A stretch of DNA of 64,000 bases, from positions 7,254,001-7,318,000 of the forward strand of contig NZ_CP107785.1 in the NCBI RefSeq assembly GCF_036345915.1, given 5' to 3'. Positions 1-28,092 of the stretch are shown one piece after another. A program made the position numbers and the translations under genes. Positions within the stretch are counted from its first letter, which is position 1. Each line of letters starts with the position of its first letter. The notes beneath the pieces are model-generated. The model made no database searches and was not told where the DNA came from. It saw only the letters and a program-made list of their open reading frames with translations. Origin of the DNA: Nocardia sp. NBC_00565. Its GTDB lineage: Bacteria > Actinomycetota > Actinomycetes > Mycobacteriales > Mycobacteriaceae.

Positions 1-629
1 ACCACGACCAGATGGAGCGGATGCGCGCCAACCTGACGAATATGGTCGCCGGCTGGGACGTCGAGCAGGTGAAATCCATTGTGGCCGAGACACTCCACGA
101 ACTCGTCGACCCGCTGATCTACGCCGAGGCCGCCGATCTCATTGCCGACCACAAGATTCGGGGCCACGATGTGGTGATCGTCTCGGCCTCGGGCGAGGAG
201 ATCGTCGGCCCGATCGCCGAGGTGCTCGGCGCCTCGCATACCGCGGCGACGCGGATGGTGGTCGAGGACGGCCACTACACCGGCGAGGTGGAGTTCTACT
301 GCTACGGGACCGGCAAGGTGACCGCGATCGAAAAGCTCGCCGCCACTGAGGGTTACGACCTCTCGCGGTGCTACGCGTACTCCGATTCGGTGACCGACGT
401 GCCGATGCTGAGCGCGGTGGGGCATCCGACCGCGGTGAATCCGGATCGCAATCTGCGACGCGAGGCGGTGGCCAAGGGTTGGCCGATCCTCACCTTCTCC
501 AACCCGGTATCGCTGTGGGCGCGTTTCCAGACGCCGTCGTCGACCACCCTTGCCGCGACCGCGGCGGTCGGGTTGAGCGCGGTGGTGGCCGGAGCGATCA
601 GTTACCGGTTGCTGCGGCGACGCCGCTGA
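1..629 (+). CDS. HAD-IB family phosphatase, 5'-truncated by the window edge (Rv3661-like)
   Basis: The frame is open to the first base (HDQ precedes the first Met), so the gene begins outside the window. What is visible is the second half of a SerB-like HAD-IB hydrolase: VIVSASGEEIV carries the motif-II serine, GTGKVTAI the motif-III lysine, and YSDSVTDVPML the motif-IV acidic pair that binds Mg. The nucleophile motif DxDxT must lie upstream. The C-terminus has a hydrophobic stretch (TLAATAAVGLSAVVAGAI) followed by RLLRRRR, which looks like a single membrane anchor with a cytoplasmic basic end. Gene order matches M. tuberculosis Rv3661. Family phosphatases act on small phosphoesters such as phosphoserine; the substrate here is unknown. 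Confidence 0.88.
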   Translation, partial: HDQMERMRANLTNMVAGWDVEQVKSIVAETLHELVDPLIYAEAADLIADHKIRGHDVVIVSASGEEIVGPIAEVLGASHTAATRMVVEDGHYTGEVEFYCYGTGKVTAIEKLAATEGYDLSRCYAYSDSVTDVPMLSAVGHPTAVNPDRNLRREAVAKGWPILTFSNPVSLWARFQTPSSTTLAATAAVGLSAVVAGAISYRLLRRRR

Positions 630-790: not shown

Positions 791-819
791 TTGATGTGAG
801 GGCTGTCACAGTGTAAAAA
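791..819 (+). promoter_or_regulatory. Predicted SigA-type promoter of the Ms1-like small RNA
   Basis: TTGATG (791-796) and TAAAAA (814-819) are separated by 17 bp, giving a start near 826. An alternative -10 is TAACTA at 822-827. No protein-coding gene follows on this strand before the hairpin at 1082-1119. Confidence 0.5.
795..810. promoter_or_regulatory. Perfect CRP-type palindrome TGTGA-N6-TCACA
   Basis: TGTGA at 795-799 and TCACA at 806-810 are separated by six bases, an exact match to the cAMP receptor protein consensus also used by the mycobacterial CRP Rv3676. It overlaps the -35/spacer of the predicted promoter of the small RNA at about 827. A crp gene is encoded at 16.6 kb. A position over the core promoter fits repression, or activation if the true start lies further downstream. 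Binding is inferred. Confidence 0.65.
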
Positions 820-826
820 GGTAACT

Positions 827-1125
827 ACGGAAGGACGGAAGGCCTGAGCGGAACCAGAAGAGAAGGTTCAGCTCCCCGACCCACCCTTCCCAGCACGGGC
901 ACCAGGTACCCACGCGGAGCGCGCCGCGACAAGGGCAGAAGCGTTGTGGGCCTGCGAAATACGGGTTTTCGACGGCGAGGGCCTCGCACAGGTTGCGGGG
1001 ATGAACCGCCGGAGTCCGGATTATCGCCGAGGCCGCAGAACACAACCCACCCAGCACGCTTGGTAACCCGGTATCCGTGCTAGCGGGCGGTGAGGTCGTC
1101 AACGACAACGCCGCCCGCTTTGATG
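827..1125 (+). ncRNA. Ms1 (MTS2823-like) RNA polymerase-binding small RNA
   Basis: This roughly 300-nt stretch has no credible ORF. It lies between the HAD hydrolase and the convergent Rv3662c-like gene, which is where Ms1/MTS2823 (about 300 nt) is encoded in mycobacteria. It has a plausible promoter upstream and ends in a strong hairpin (1082-1119) followed by a short T-rich run. ACGGA near the 5' end (827-831) can pair with TCCGT at 1074-1078, a closing helix like that of 6S-type RNAs. Ms1 is known to bind core RNA polymerase in stationary-phase M. smegmatis. Both ends are approximate. Identification rests on position, size and structure, not on an alignment. Confidence 0.72.
1082..1122 (+). 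terminator. Terminator hairpin of the Ms1-like RNA
   Basis: AGCGGGCGG (1082-1090) pairs perfectly with CCGCCCGCT (1111-1119), with a smaller hairpin inside the loop, followed by TTTGATG. It may also serve the converging gene ending at 1140. Confidence 0.65.
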
Positions 1126-5643: not shown

Positions 5644-7242
5644 CTACTTCTCGATGTTTTCGAAGTCGAACAGACCGTTCCACGCGAGATCGGCCTTCTT
5701 CACCTTGTCCGAACGACCCGCGGCGGCAAGATAATCGAGCACCGGGATGTCGGCCATATCCTTGATCAGCAACGCCTGCGCCTGCGCCACGATCTTGTAC
5801 GACTCTTCCAGCGTCGGCGCGGCCAGCGCGGCGTCGAGCAGGTGGTCGAATTCGGGGCTCTTGTAGTCGACGTTGTTGGTATCGGAGTAGCTGTAGTACT
5901 GCGAGGTGAGGAACTGCAGCATGGTCGGGTAGTCACCCTGCCAGCCGTAGCGGAACGACTTGCCGATGGTCTTCTGGTTCACCAGATCCCGGATGTTCTT
6001 GAAGGTCGGGTACGGCGTGCCGACGGCGTCGATACCGAGGGTGTTCTTGATGCTGTTGGCCACGGCCTCGATCCACGCCTGGTGGCCGCCGTCGGAGTTG
6101 TAGGCGATCTCGTAGCGACCCGACCACGGCGAGATGGCGTCGGCCTGCGCCCAGACCTTCTTGGCTTCGTCGGGGTTGTAGTTCAGCACCTCCGAACCCG
6201 GCAGGTTGCCGTTGAATCCGGGCAGGGTGCTGGAGGTGAAGTCCCGGGCCGGGATCTTGGTGCCGTTGAAGATGGTGTCGCAGATCTGCTGGCGGTTGAT
6301 CGCCATCGAGATGGCCCGGCGCCGCAGCAGACCCTCCTCACCACCGAAGTGCGCGACGTTGGCCTGGACGCCGATGTGCTGGTTCTGCGCGGACGGCTCG
6401 AGGATCGCGCGATCGCCGAGGTCCTTCTTGTAGGAGGTCAGCGCGCTATCCGGAATCGTGTCGAGGGTATCGAGATTGCCCGCCTGCAGATCCGAGTACG
6501 CCGTGTCGAAGGACTGGTACATGACGAAGCGCAGGCCCTTGTTCTTGGGCGGGCGGCCGCCCTTGTATTCCGGGTTGGGCACCAGGTCGATCTTGACGTT
6601 GTGCTCCCAGGTCTGGAACTTGTACGGGCCGTTGCCGATCGGGTTCTCACCGAAGGCCTTCATATCCTTGAAGGCGGCCTCGGGCAGCGGGTAGAACGGC
6701 GCGTAGCCGAGTTCGGTCTCGAAGTCGATGGACGGCGTCTTCAATTCGACGGTGAAGGTCCGGTCGTCGACCACCTTCAGCCCCGCCATCGTCTGTGCCG
6801 TCGGCTTTTCCGCCGACACCTCGTCGAAGCCGACGATCGGGGTGAACACATAGCTCTGCAACTGGCCATTGGTGCCGAGGGCGCCGTAGTTCCAGGCGTC
6901 GACGAACGACTTCGCGGTCACCGTGGTGCCGTCGGTGAACTTCCAGTCCGGCTTGATGGTGATGGTGTAGTTCTTGCGATCGGTCGTCTTGATCGACTCG
7001 GCCATCTCGTCGTGCGAGACGCCCTTGCCGTCGTAGTACTTCAGACCCGCGAACAGTCGGTCGACGACGCGGCCACCCATATTCTCGTTGGTATTGGTGG
7101 GCACCAACGGATTCTGCGGCTCACCGGCGTTCGTGGTGACGATGTCGGCATCGGCACTATCGCTCGACGAACATGCGGACAGTCCCAGGCTTGTGGCCAG
7201 CAGTACTGCCGCGGTCAACGCTGTAGCTCTGTTGAATCTCAA
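5644..7242 (-). CDS. dppA: Peptide-binding lipoprotein of the Dpp importer
   Basis: This 532-residue solute-binding protein of family 5 (SBP_bac_5) has a lipoprotein signal: RFNRATALTAAVLLATSLG then lipobox LSAC, so it is anchored outside the membrane. I chose the TTG at 7242 because GGGAGAA lies 6 nt upstream and the peptide then begins as a proper signal sequence; the ATG at 7287 would add 15 unlikely residues. The family fold is seen in MAESIKTTDRKNYTITIKPD and later SQYYSYSDTNN. It captures peptides for DppBCD. In M. tuberculosis the orthologous system imports tetrapeptides and has also been linked to heme. Confidence 0.94.
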   Translation of the reverse strand: MRFNRATALTAAVLLATSLGLSACSSSDSADADIVTTNAGEPQNPLVPTNTNENMGGRVVDRLFAGLKYYDGKGVSHDEMAESIKTTDRKNYTITIKPDWKFTDGTTVTAKSFVDAWNYGALGTNGQLQSYVFTPIVGFDEVSAEKPTAQTMAGLKVVDDRTFTVELKTPSIDFETELGYAPFYPLPEAAFKDMKAFGENPIGNGPYKFQTWEHNVKIDLVPNPEYKGGRPPKNKGLRFVMYQSFDTAYSDLQAGNLDTLDTIPDSALTSYKKDLGDRAILEPSAQNQHIGVQANVAHFGGEEGLLRRRAISMAINRQQICDTIFNGTKIPARDFTSSTLPGFNGNLPGSEVLNYNPDEAKKVWAQADAISPWSGRYEIAYNSDGGHQAWIEAVANSIKNTLGIDAVGTPYPTFKNIRDLVNQKTIGKSFRYGWQGDYPTMLQFLTSQYYSYSDTNNVDYKSPEFDHLLDAALAAPTLEESYKIVAQAQALLIKDMADIPVLDYLAAAGRSDKVKKADLAWNGLFDFENIEK

Positions 7243-7675
7243 CGCGTTCTCCCGATTTCGAGACAGGCGAAGGGGATCCGCGACCACGCATGCGCAACTG
7301 CCCAGCGCGCCTCGACTCGATCCGCCTTGGAATGCCTGGGACGTTAGCTATTCGAAGCAGAATTGTCACCGGATTGACCGAGGTTCGTTCCACTTGTTAC
7401 CAATCCGGCAACATCGTCGAAACACGCTAAACATTCATGGAAAAACGGACATACGCCGGAACTATGCCTCCGTTGGGCTTCCGGTATCCGAAGCTGGCAG
7501 ATCAATAACGATAGCGACCGAAGGGCCGGTTTGTCAGGGGATCGCGCAGCATACCCGGCGCGGTGACCGGATGGAAACCCGTTGGACACACCGGCCGCAG
7601 TGCGGGTCACAGTTGGTTACTGTCGAATTCGACTGCGACTGCCAGCACCACCGGCTACGTGAAGGAAGAGACGAG
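7243..7675. other. Divergent dppA / acs regulatory region
   Basis: These 433 bp separate dppA (leftward) from acs (rightward). I found no ORF with a convincing start and no full TGTGA-N6-TCACA site, only a shortened GTG-N5-CAC around 7600-7610. The acs ribosome site GAAGGAAGAG is at 7661-7670. Both promoters must lie here but I cannot place them with confidence. Confidence 0.5.
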
Positions 7676-9631
<1,956 letters not shown>

Positions 9632-15259: not shown

Positions 15260-16110
15260 CGGCCCACCAGCTCGAGCAGGTGCTCCGCCTCCGGCCCCTT
15301 CACGAGCTTGGCCGCGGTATCCGGATCGGTCGGCCCGGTTCCGAACGAGGGGCAGTCCTTGGCCAGGATGCAGACACCGCATGCGGGTTTACGGGCATGA
15401 CAGACCCGGCGCCCGTGAAAAATCACGCGATGGGACAGCATCGTCCATTCCTTGCGCTCGATCAGCTCACCGATGGCGTGTTCGACCTTCACCGGATCTT
15501 CCTCGGTGGTCCACGCCCAGCGGCGCACCAGACGACCGAAATGGGTGTCGACTGTGATGCCGGGCACCCCGAAGGCGTTGCCGAGGATGACGTTGGCAGT
15601 CTTGCGGCCGATGCCCGGCAATTGCACGAGTTCGTCGAGGGTGTGAGGCAATTCACCGTCATAGCGCTCGACCAGTGCCTGCCCGAGCCCGATCAGAGAA
15701 CTGGTCTTGTTCCGGAAGAAGCCGGTCGGCCGGATGTATTCCTCCAGCTCGGCGCGGTTCGCACCGGCGTAGGCGCGGGCGTCCGGATACTTGGTGAACA
15801 GTGCCGGTGTGGTCAGATTCACTCGCCCATCGGTGCACTGCGCGGAAAGTATTGTGGCGACCGCCAATTCGAGTGGCGTGGTGAAGTCGAGCTCACAGTG
15901 CGCGTCCGGGAATGCCACCGCGAGTACACGGTTCATCCGGCGGGCCCTTCGGGTAAGGCCGAGCTGGGTTTCCGCTTGTCGCGCTCGGGATTTACGTTTC
16001 GGAACGGGGACCGCGGCGGGTTGCGCATCGGTCGCCTCGGCGGCAGGCGAAGACCCGCCGATGGCGGCTGTGGAGGGGGAGACACGCACGCGTCCACCAT
16101 ACGGAATCAC
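15256..16110 (-). CDS. nth: Endonuclease III (DNA glycosylase/AP lyase)
   Basis: This 284-residue base-excision repair enzyme removes oxidized pyrimidines and cleaves abasic sites. The helix-hairpin-helix is [18 protein letters not shown] with the catalytic Lys, the catalytic Asp is in VDTHFGRL, and the 4Fe-4S cluster ligands are C-X6-C-X2-C-X5-C in [18 protein letters not shown]. The N-terminus has about 40 more residues than the 245-residue mycobacterial protein, low-complexity and basic (PKRKSRAR). The GTG at 16110 is preceded by an odd two-codon ORF; starts further in are possible. Confidence 0.93.
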
Positions 16111-16517: not shown

Positions 16518-16603
16518 TACGCTGTCGTAATGCCGCGTAGACTGCGCTGTTGGCCGAATCGCTTCGGTCCAGGACAGAGCCATTTCCCATAAGGAGCACA
16601 TTC

Positions 16604-17278
16604 GTGGACGAGGCCCTCGCCAGAGCAGGCATCTTCCAAGGCGTAGAGCCCACCGCGGTGGCGGCTCTCGCCAAACAACTGCAGCCCGTGGATTTTCCGC
16701 GCGGCCATGTCATCTTCAACGAGGGCGAACCCGGCGACCGGTTGTACATCATCACCTCCGGCAAGGTGAAGATCGGACGGCGTTCCCCGGACGGCAGAGA
16801 GAACCTGCTGACCATCATGGGTCCGTCGGACATGTTCGGTGAGCTGTCGATCTTCGACCCGGGTCCGCGCACCTCCACCGCAACCACCGTGACCGAGGTT
16901 CGCGCGGTCACCATGGACCGAGACGCACTCAAGTCCTGGATCGACCAGCGGCCCGAGATCGCCGAGCAGTTGCTCCGCGTTCTCGCCCGTCGTTTGCGCC
17001 GTACCAATAACAACCTGGCCGATCTGATCTTCACCGATGTCCCCGGCCGGGTCGCCAAGGCGTTGCTGCAGCTCGCGCAGCGGTTCGGCACCCAGGAGGC
17101 CGGTGCGCTGCGGGTCACCCACGACTTGACCCAGGAAGAGATCGCCCAGCTGGTCGGCGCCTCTCGTGAAACCGTGAACAAGGCCCTTGCCGACTTCGCG
17201 CATCGCGGCTGGCTCCGGCTGGAGGGCAAGAGTGTGTTGATCTCCGACTCCGAGCGCCTGGCCCGCCGCGCGCGCTGA
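16604..17278 (+). CDS. crp: cAMP receptor protein Crp
   Basis: At 224 residues it has the same length as Rv3676, and the sequence read here is close to it throughout. The cyclic-nucleotide pocket is [17 protein letters not shown] (PBC motif with the phosphate-binding Arg-Thr/Ser), followed by the long dimer helix and a winged HTH ([19 protein letters not shown]). The GTG at 16604 has AAGGAG 7 nt upstream; the ATG at 16550 would add residues absent from the family. It is a global cAMP-responsive regulator recognizing TGTGA-N6-TCACA. A perfect copy of that site lies at 795-810. Confidence 0.97.
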
Positions 17279-21646: not shown

Positions 21647-21975
21647 TTGGTGTGCCCCTTTGCAGTCCGAACACCGGGTCAACGGCGCTCCAGAATCGCG
21701 TGTCAGTGTCGCAGCAACCCAATCCCCGCTGCGAACTGCACCACATTCCACTTTGAGTGTTAGCTCTATCACACTGGGTTCTCAATCTAGGTAAAGGTAT
21801 GGCTTCTGCGCAAGACCGTTCCGAGACTTTTTGGTACGTCCGTCCCTGCAAACGTGATAGAGAACCGGGCGGTTGACTCGACATGCGGCTCGCCCTCCGA
21901 CGACACGCCGCATCAAGTCCCGCGACACGCCCATTCGGGCGCTCGAAGCGCAAGTTCTGGCGGCCGTAGCGGACT

Positions 21976-26472: not shown

Positions 26473-27774
26473 GTGAATGATTTCGACGACCGGCCCGAAC
26501 CAACTCGATCCGGTGCGCCGTCTCAGCAACAGCCTTACGGCGCAGGGCAATTCGGTCCTGCGCTGGGACCGTCCGAATTCGGGCAGTCCGATCCCACCGA
26601 TCATGCGCAGAGCCCCAGCGCTCAGGCACAGAACACCTTCGGCGCACCGGTGGATCTCGACTCCGCCGCAAGCCCGCCGTTCGGCGGCGCGCCGGAACCC
26701 ACGCTGCAATGGCAACCCGGGGTCATCGGATCGACCCGAACATCAAGCGCACCAGGACAACTCGATCCCACCACGGCGTGGGCACCTCGATCGGCCGGGT
26801 CCGCACAACACGAGCCATCCGCGCAGTGGGCACCGGCCGCGTCCGCGCCCTACCAACCCAGTGTGCAATGGGAGCCGGTTCCGCGGCGGCGAACCAGGCA
26901 ATTCCAGTCGGGCGCAACGACACCCGAACAGGCGGGTGCGCCGCCCGCGGACGGCGGGCTGAGCGCACTCTACGGCGGCCAACGCTCACCGGGCTTTCCG
27001 ACCGGCTCGAACGGCCGCCCCGGCCGCGGTCGGGGTGCGGCGTGGGTGGCGGCAGCGGTGGCCGCGCTGGTGGTCGCCGGCGGGGCGACAGCGGCGATCG
27101 TGGCGGCCGACCGCGGGTCGGACGAGACCACCGCGCAGGACACCCCACCGTCCATGGTGAGCGCGTTGACGACCACCGGTGGCTCGCACACCGCGCCGCC
27201 GACTACTACGCCCGAGCCGACCCAGGCCAATAACGAAACCCCGGTCGTGCCCGGGTACAAAGTGGTCGTGGCATCGGATCTAGGGGCCGCCTACGACGTC
27301 CCGGCCGACTGGACCGTTGCCCCCGACGGCAAGGTCGGCGGTTTCGGTGCGCCGCCGAACGCCGTCACCGGCAAGGGACTAGCCACCGATGGCAAGAGCT
27401 ACTGCCCCGGCTCGACCCGCACCGTGGCCTTCCTGACCGGCTCCAAGGACAACGATTCGGCGATAGCCGCAACCGAACTCGGCACCAGGACCGCCGAGGC
27501 CGCGTACACGAACTCACCGGGCGGCATGCCGAGCCCGGCACAGCCGCTCAATTCGCTCGACGGCGCCCAGCAGGGGATGTTCGTGGAGACCAAGGGCATC
27601 GCCACCAAGGTCAACCCCGGCTGCGCCACGAACTACTCGGTCTATACCTTCGCCACCCCCACCGATAACGGCAGTTTCGTCATGGTGATCGCCGCCGACA
27701 CCGGCGTCCCCAACGCCGTCGACGCGGATACCGCGAAGCGGATCTTCACCAGCATTCGGCCCCACAAAGAGTAA
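26473..27774 (+). CDS. Single-pass membrane protein with Pro/Gln-rich cytoplasmic half
   Basis: The protein is 433 residues. Residues 1-185 are low-complexity (Pro, Gln, Ser, Ala) with recurring QW-containing motifs (TLQWQPG, SAQWAPA, SVQWEPV). A helix near 190-210 (AAWVAAAVAALVVAGGATAAI) crosses the membrane, then a Thr-rich linker and a globular outer domain of about 170 residues begin with VVPGYKVVVASDLGAAYDVP. The outer domain has two cysteines (SYCPGST, NPGCATN), probably disulfide-bonded. This architecture is common in Nocardia and Rhodococcus (DUF8017-like). Function unknown. GTG start at 26473. Confidence 0.82.
   Translation: MNDFDDRPEPTRSGAPSQQQPYGAGQFGPALGPSEFGQSDPTDHAQSPSAQAQNTFGAPVDLDSAASPPFGGAPEPTLQWQPGVIGSTRTSSAPGQLDPTTAWAPRSAGSAQHEPSAQWAPAASAPYQPSVQWEPVPRRRTRQFQSGATTPEQAGAPPADGGLSALYGGQRSPGFPTGSNGRPGRGRGAAWVAAAVAALVVAGGATAAIVAADRGSDETTAQDTPPSMVSALTTTGGSHTAPPTTTPEPTQANNETPVVPGYKVVVASDLGAAYDVPADWTVAPDGKVGGFGAPPNAVTGKGLATDGKSYCPGSTRTVAFLTGSKDNDSAIAATELGTRTAEAAYTNSPGGMPSPAQPLNSLDGAQQGMFVETKGIATKVNPGCATNYSVYTFATPTDNGSFVMVIAADTGVPNAVDADTAKRIFTSIRPHKE

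Positions 27775-27831: not shown

Positions 27832-28092
<261 letters not shown>

Follow-up and report, generated by a model that had tools for sequence, protein, structure and literature searches.

A conserved predicted Crp operator in the promoter of the core polymerase-binding RNA Ms1 in Nocardia

What keeps the Ms1 RNA low in growing cells and raises it in stationary phase? In Mycobacterium smegmatis, Ms1 was found to bind core RNA polymerase and to rise in stationary phase, and its discoverers considered even its sigma factor unclear (PMC4191392, cited from excerpts like all papers given here by PMC number). We analysed a stretch of 64,000 nucleotides from Nocardia sp. NBC_00565, called the window below, in which a Crp-type palindrome lies within the Ms1 promoter. 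A conserved predicted Crp operator at this place offers a direct test of the question. If our reading is true, it would couple carbon and energy signalling to how much free RNA polymerase is in stock.

The Ms1 gene and its promoter

The initial annotation had placed an Ms1-type RNA at this locus, and a search of the window with Infernal bore this out. The Ms1 family RF02566 matched at 827-1126 on the forward strand with 167.2 bits (E 1.1e-42), above its gathering score of 162, and the alignment covered the full length of the covariance model (positions 1-304 of 304). The model sets A827 as the first base of the RNA and its 3' hairpin is present. No terminator was listed on the Ms1 strand by a terminator scan of the window. 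Ms1 is expected beside a HAD-IB family hydrolase gene, and such a gene was found upstream on the same strand (3..629, truncated by the window edge; NCBIfam TIGR01490, 174.6 bits against a cut-off of 98.3). The full-length match, the upstream hydrolase and the 5' A, which is also the published 5' base of M. smegmatis Ms1, are shared with the known Ms1/MTS2823 RNA (PMC4191392, excerpt). LexA binding has been noted at the Ms1 locus in the same paper.

Downstream of Ms1, an open reading frame on the opposite strand (1140-1889) had no NCBIfam match, and beyond it an ABC-transporter-like operon was named by reading the open reading frames. Besides Ms1, one tRNA was the only Rfam match at gathering score, and 6S RNA gave no Rfam match at gathering score within the window. 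A tRNA-Pro at 27835 was called by both ARAGORN and Rfam, and a tRNA-Ala of 92 bases at 27025-27116 was called by ARAGORN and was below the Rfam gathering score. Just beyond the window, a 6C RNA (RF01066, 67.1 bits) is encoded on the opposite strand, upstream of Ms1 and beyond the hydrolase gene, at genome positions 7253454-7253527; ncRv13660c of M. tuberculosis is presumably a 6C RNA as well. A Crp site upstream of ncRv13660c was seen by ChIP in M. tuberculosis (PMC4117774), and a 6C RNA upstream of the Ms1/hydrolase locus is a mycobacterial arrangement too (PMC6582537). When the stretch with the 6C RNA was searched for Crp sites, the Ms1 site and one site with two mismatches were found, which is not above chance.

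The Ms1 promoter was read as a -35 hexamer TTGATG at 791..796 and a -10 hexamer TAAAAA at 814..819, both on the forward strand and separated by a 17-bp spacer. A strict sigma-70 consensus scan found no promoter at Ms1; the two hexamers match 8 of 12 consensus letters and the -10 is without the final T. Conservation, together with the 5' A published for M. smegmatis Ms1 (PMC4191392, excerpt), is the basis of the promoter call. An exact CRP-type consensus over the -35 and spacer had also been claimed for this locus, and rightly so: the palindrome TGTGAGGGCTGTCACA at 795..810 is an exact TGTGA-N6-TCACA that shares its first two bases with the end of the -35 and otherwise lies within the spacer. 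Its centre is at -24.5 relative to A827.

Most of the loci read had an Ms1 -10 that ends in a letter other than T (the usual form is TAnnnT), and this atypical -10 may reflect dependence on CarD or RbpA. CarD depletion has been reported to affect Ms1 in stationary M. smegmatis (PMC12709188, excerpt). Upstream of the -35, 17-20 bases before the palindrome, an AATG stretch (775-778) was fairly conserved in the genus, with A at -19 in 90% of 90 genus windows.

Crp as the proposed repressor

We propose that 795-810 is a Crp operator in a sigmaA-type Ms1 promoter, that Crp represses Ms1 at high cAMP and that falling cAMP releases it. To this reading we assign a probability of roughly 0.74, and we infer all three of its elements, namely Crp as the binder, repression, and falling cAMP as the signal. 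What the analysis itself shows is the RNA family, the palindrome and its position on the promoter, and that the palindrome is conserved and is lost in lineages in which the promoter persists. At high cAMP, a Crp dimer would occupy the -35 end and the spacer, so that sigma would be kept off the -35 and Ms1 would stay low. On starvation or entry into stationary phase cAMP would fall, Crp would leave and the promoter would fire, and the accumulated Ms1 would hold core RNA polymerase.

The likely regulator is encoded in the window itself. The longest open reading frame of crp spans 16550..17278 on the forward strand, with homology to solved chains from 16607. The best solved match of its product is 3h3u (E 4.7e-133, 91.5% identity over 223 residues, with an identical recognition helix), which we take to be M. 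tuberculosis Crp. The title of 3h3u in the PDB is that of a probable Crp/Fnr-family regulator. The best NCBIfam family for the protein was CRP, at 103.8 bits and below the curated cut-off of 266. Five class III cyclase domains in the genome would provide a source of cAMP. The initial annotation had pointed out that crp is 16 kb away with acs in between. As positions these statements hold, since crp lies about 15.8 kb from the Ms1 site and an acetyl-CoA-synthetase-like open reading frame, named by reading, stands between them (7088-9631, forward strand). The nearness of crp and acs is no evidence of regulation and was given no weight.

HTH_Crp matched 18 times in the genome, mostly with weaker scores; crp reached 65.4 bits and the second strong match 61.4 bits. 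A second full-length Crp-like protein, C1:1723857, carries the helix GASREAVSKAL. If the palindrome is real but is read by another Crp/Fnr-family protein, such as this paralogue, Ms1 would be tied to another signal. We regard this as unlikely: the paralogue matches HTH_Crp strongly, its helix is similar and weaker matches exist too, but 795-810 has the exact consensus for Crp, and the window Crp shares its recognition helix with 3h3u.

Class I or class II activation by Crp involves a site centred near -61.5 or -41.5, and a centre at -24.5 corresponds to neither. The overlap with the -35/-10 region that is typical of Crp-repressed promoters was found, as 795-810 takes in the end of the -35 and the greater part of the spacer. 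The initial annotation gave no sign of the control; the centre at -24.5 predicts repression and not activation, because a Crp dimer bound there would lie over the end of the -35 and the spacer. Crp-repressed promoters with the site over the core promoter are a close likeness, here with an exact consensus at -24.5, and they differ from our case in that the target is an RNA polymerase-binding RNA. For M. tuberculosis Crp, repression tends to go with sites near the start and activation with upstream sites, and both cAMP and Crp binding drop in starvation (PMC4117774, excerpt). According to the same source, regulation occurs at only a subset of the Crp-bound sites, and the authors' table holds exceptions to the position rule: the mutant shows lower expression for a site at -0.5 and higher expression for one at -76.5. 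None of the 29 M. tuberculosis genes listed in the excerpt has a Crp site near -24, and the three small RNAs named there with upstream Crp sites do not include the Ms1 homologue.

Crp could also bind the palindrome and activate Ms1, for example by bending the spacer in the way of MerR-type regulators. A weak -10 without the final T could need such help, and Crp is needed for the M. tuberculosis small RNA MTS0997, where the site lies 107 bp upstream (PMC3207917, excerpt). This seems to us distinctly improbable: in the genus the palindrome is centred between -23.5 and -25.5, far from -41.5 or -61.5, and a dimer would cover the -35. Moreover, no distortion would be needed because the spacer mostly has 17 bp already.

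Published expression data were compared with repression by Crp as the preferred reading. In stationary phase M. smegmatis raises Ms1 about 130-fold (PMC4191392), and this is the largest induction among the reports compared though the M. smegmatis-type site is imperfect (8/10). In growing M. tuberculosis only rRNA already exceeds the homologue in abundance, and the homologue increases from 6748 to 43600 RPKM, which is called ten-fold in the text (PMC3207917, excerpt). For M. mucogenicum, the exponential-phase bands are shown overexposed according to the figure legend (PMC6582537). Low cAMP was reported in non-culturable M. smegmatis kept in resuscitation medium without fatty acid (PMC3871856). 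These expression contrasts, which come from different species and methods, fit the direction and prove nothing. There must be a second control or signal, because stationary-phase induction of Ms1 is still seen in the slow grower M. marinum and in M. tuberculosis (PMC13354803 and PMC3207917, excerpts).

No report of Crp control of Ms1/MTS2823 was found among the matches listed from the open-licence literature searched for Crp, cAMP and promoter. Spot 42 RNA of E. coli is encoded by a small RNA gene that is repressed by cAMP-Crp, and it pairs with mRNAs. Repression by cAMP-Crp would thus be common to the Spot 42 and, as proposed, the Ms1 gene, whereas Ms1 binds core polymerase and Spot 42 pairs with mRNAs. 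6S RNA is likewise an abundant polymerase-binding RNA of stationary phase, and differs in binding the holoenzyme with the primary sigma factor. MTS0997, which we take to be Mcr11, is another small RNA for comparison. Crp control of small RNAs is already known from Spot 42 and MTS0997, and Ms1 is an unusual target for it. MTS0997 resembles the proposed case as a mycobacterial small RNA under Crp, and differs in that its expression falls without Crp, that its site is the distant one given above and that the RNA is unrelated to Ms1 (PMC3207917, excerpt). For Ms1/MTS2823, Crp control is not described in the excerpts of PMC4191392, PMC9130861, PMC11077062 and PMC12709188.

Conservation of the palindrome within the genus

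Ms1 was matched at E 0.001 or better in 145 of 148 genomes of the genus and in none of the 14 control genomes. The covariance scores of most relatives were under the Rfam cut-off, which was exceeded in 33 of the 148 genus genomes and in 28 of 161 genomes of the family. For the promoters, we read the 30 best Ms1 matches in the genus (our own locus included), 60 mostly taken at every second place further down the list, and two from another survey. In these 92 promoters the -35 TTG was present in every case, and the full TTGATG in 62. The palindrome was scored as the number of the ten half-site letters that agree with the consensus, taking the best of five registers for promoters and control TTG places alike. 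It reached at least 8/10 in 92 of 92 and 10/10 in 67, counts that are not independent as the species are related. Conservation in close relatives had been expected from the outset, and it was found throughout the genus set. In comparison, only 2 of 2147 other TTG places, taken from 198 loci of all genera, reached 8 or more.

The constancy of the palindrome alone cannot tell it from the promoter, because the -35 TTG is equally constant (92/92). What maintains the inverted repeat might be the promoter itself or a dimeric regulator of another kind, with Crp having no role. The left half-site overlaps the -35, and the TTG is as constant as the half-site cores. We nevertheless find this very unlikely. 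When 90 distinct genus windows were aligned on the palindrome, the cores GTG and CAC were invariant in all 90, and the N6 occurred in 43 versions. Since CAC lies in the spacer, where no fixed letters are needed, its invariance separates the palindrome from the promoter. The same is indicated by shifts of register: the palindrome was displaced by one base towards the TTG in eight loci and by one base away from it in three, while every one of these 11 loci kept its TA-type -10 at 17 bp. The TTG and a TA-type -10 can in turn persist where the palindrome is absent. Overall the centre of the palindrome was at -24.5 in 76 of the 92 loci, at -25.5 in 12 and at -23.5 in four. TA at 17 bp was missing in seven of the 92, six of which had it at 18 bp and one lacked TA.

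A chance match, which a short motif in a 64-kb window with about one expected one-mismatch site might produce, is already refuted by the conservation in 92 of 92 genus promoters against 2 of 2147 control places. The window by itself is less telling: it held three sites with at most one mismatch, compared with a mean of 1.13 in shuffled sequences, and nine of 100 shuffles reached three. The exact site was found at 795-810 alone. Across the 9.7-Mb genome, TGTGA-N6-TCACA occurred 20 times and the reversed control pattern once, which suggests that exact sites, taken together, are under selection. The two other one-mismatch Crp-like sites of the window are at 15642-15657 and 21758-21773, where about one is expected by chance.

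The site in other genera and its loss in mycobacteria

A link between carbon and energy signalling and polymerase availability had been suggested for this genus. The site is indeed conserved there, but it is not special to the genus, being found in 19 of 30 family genera and in a second family and absent in others. Ms1 was matched in 146 of the 161 family genomes; two genera had weak matches, at loci without the TTG. The loci of other genera were those listed by the family survey together with 60 hand-picked places, covering all 30 genera with a match. From the resulting 198 rows we removed two duplicates as well as four second copies of Ms1-like matches, which left 192. In six of these the TTG was absent from its expected position, and they were counted as misses, although in one of the six the model start is shifted and the palindrome lies next to it.

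A score of at least 8 was found in 140 of 182 family loci, belonging to 19 of the 30 Ms1-bearing genera read, and no locus with such a score was found in the other 11. Among the remaining family loci, eight scored 7, 28 scored 6 or less and six were unscorable. In the second family of the order, nine of ten loci scored at least 8; these ten were the best of 15 genomes with a match, and several are near-copies. A TA at 17 bp was present in 166 of the 176 family loci with a -35 TTG. The 28 family loci with a score of 6 or less, for which the TTG was required for scoring, had TA at 17 bp in 25 cases and at 18 bp in three. From the counts in both families, we conclude that the palindrome is old and dispensable, and that this type of promoter can outlive it.

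A relocated site, with a score of at least 8 between -250 and +30, was found in only two of the 65 loci scoring 6 or less (28 of the family, one of the second family, two second copies and 34 named mycobacterial loci). Extra sites of this score numbered seven in the 228 loci that themselves scored at least 8. A second Ms1-like match, of shorter length, occurs in some genomes. In all four of these second copies that were read the palindrome was absent at the promoter place, two of them scoring 2 and 3 and two being without the TTG.

In mycobacteria, a pattern for the promoter of the mycobacterial genus matched in 168 of 248, and the score counts were drawn from a named set that overlaps with the other mycobacterial loci. 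The search of the named collection, with a pattern leaving the palindrome free, gave at least 118 stretches, and seven of 118 were set aside as cut or as not being Ms1 promoters. Among the matches listed, the 111 named Ms1 promoters fell into 65 with a score of 9 or 10, 12 with 8 and 34 with 4 to 6. High scorers among the matches listed included M. peregrinum, M. septicum, M. vaccae and M. wolinskyi, which like M. mucogenicum we take to be fast growers, and M. tusciae, presumably a slow one. Low scorers among them included M. scrofulaceum, M. colombiense, M. szulgai, M. interjectum and M. triplex, presumably all slow growers, and M. vulneris. The last was the sole Mycolicibacterium among the low scorers listed and in our understanding belongs with the M. 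avium group. We take the 34 low-scoring named loci to represent the main slow-growing mycobacterial clade. The Ms1 promoter of Mycolicibacter, whose members we believe to be slow or intermediate growers, scored 8 and its site is not degraded. The loss thus marks a clade and not slow growth as such, because Mycolicibacter and M. tusciae keep the site.

A quick tree of 99 loci was made with the promoter columns removed; 12 of the 111 named loci had too little flank and were left out, and long branches were flagged. On this tree the three score classes needed four changes, compared with 35.3 in shuffles, and the low scorers needed two. The published M. smegmatis Ms1 primer was found in two of 396 mycobacterial genomes, and both carry TGTGACCCGGGACACG, which scores 8/10.

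Beyond the repression proposed for Nocardia, we tentatively raise a wider history, which on present evidence is doubtful: cAMP-Crp repression of Ms1 might be ancestral in the order, and the operator might have been broken, with the promoter kept, in the ancestor of the main slow-growing mycobacterial clade. Ms1 would then be high even in growth, and this may be part of the physiology of the clade. If true, the ancestral circuit would make the amount of stored polymerase depend on a second messenger. The natural loss of the site in some lineages provides a ready comparison. Mycobacterial loci with a degraded palindrome share a conserved spacer of their own, often CTAGGGGTCTAG or CTAAGGGTCTAG, which is near to an inverted repeat and may be a site for another regulator.
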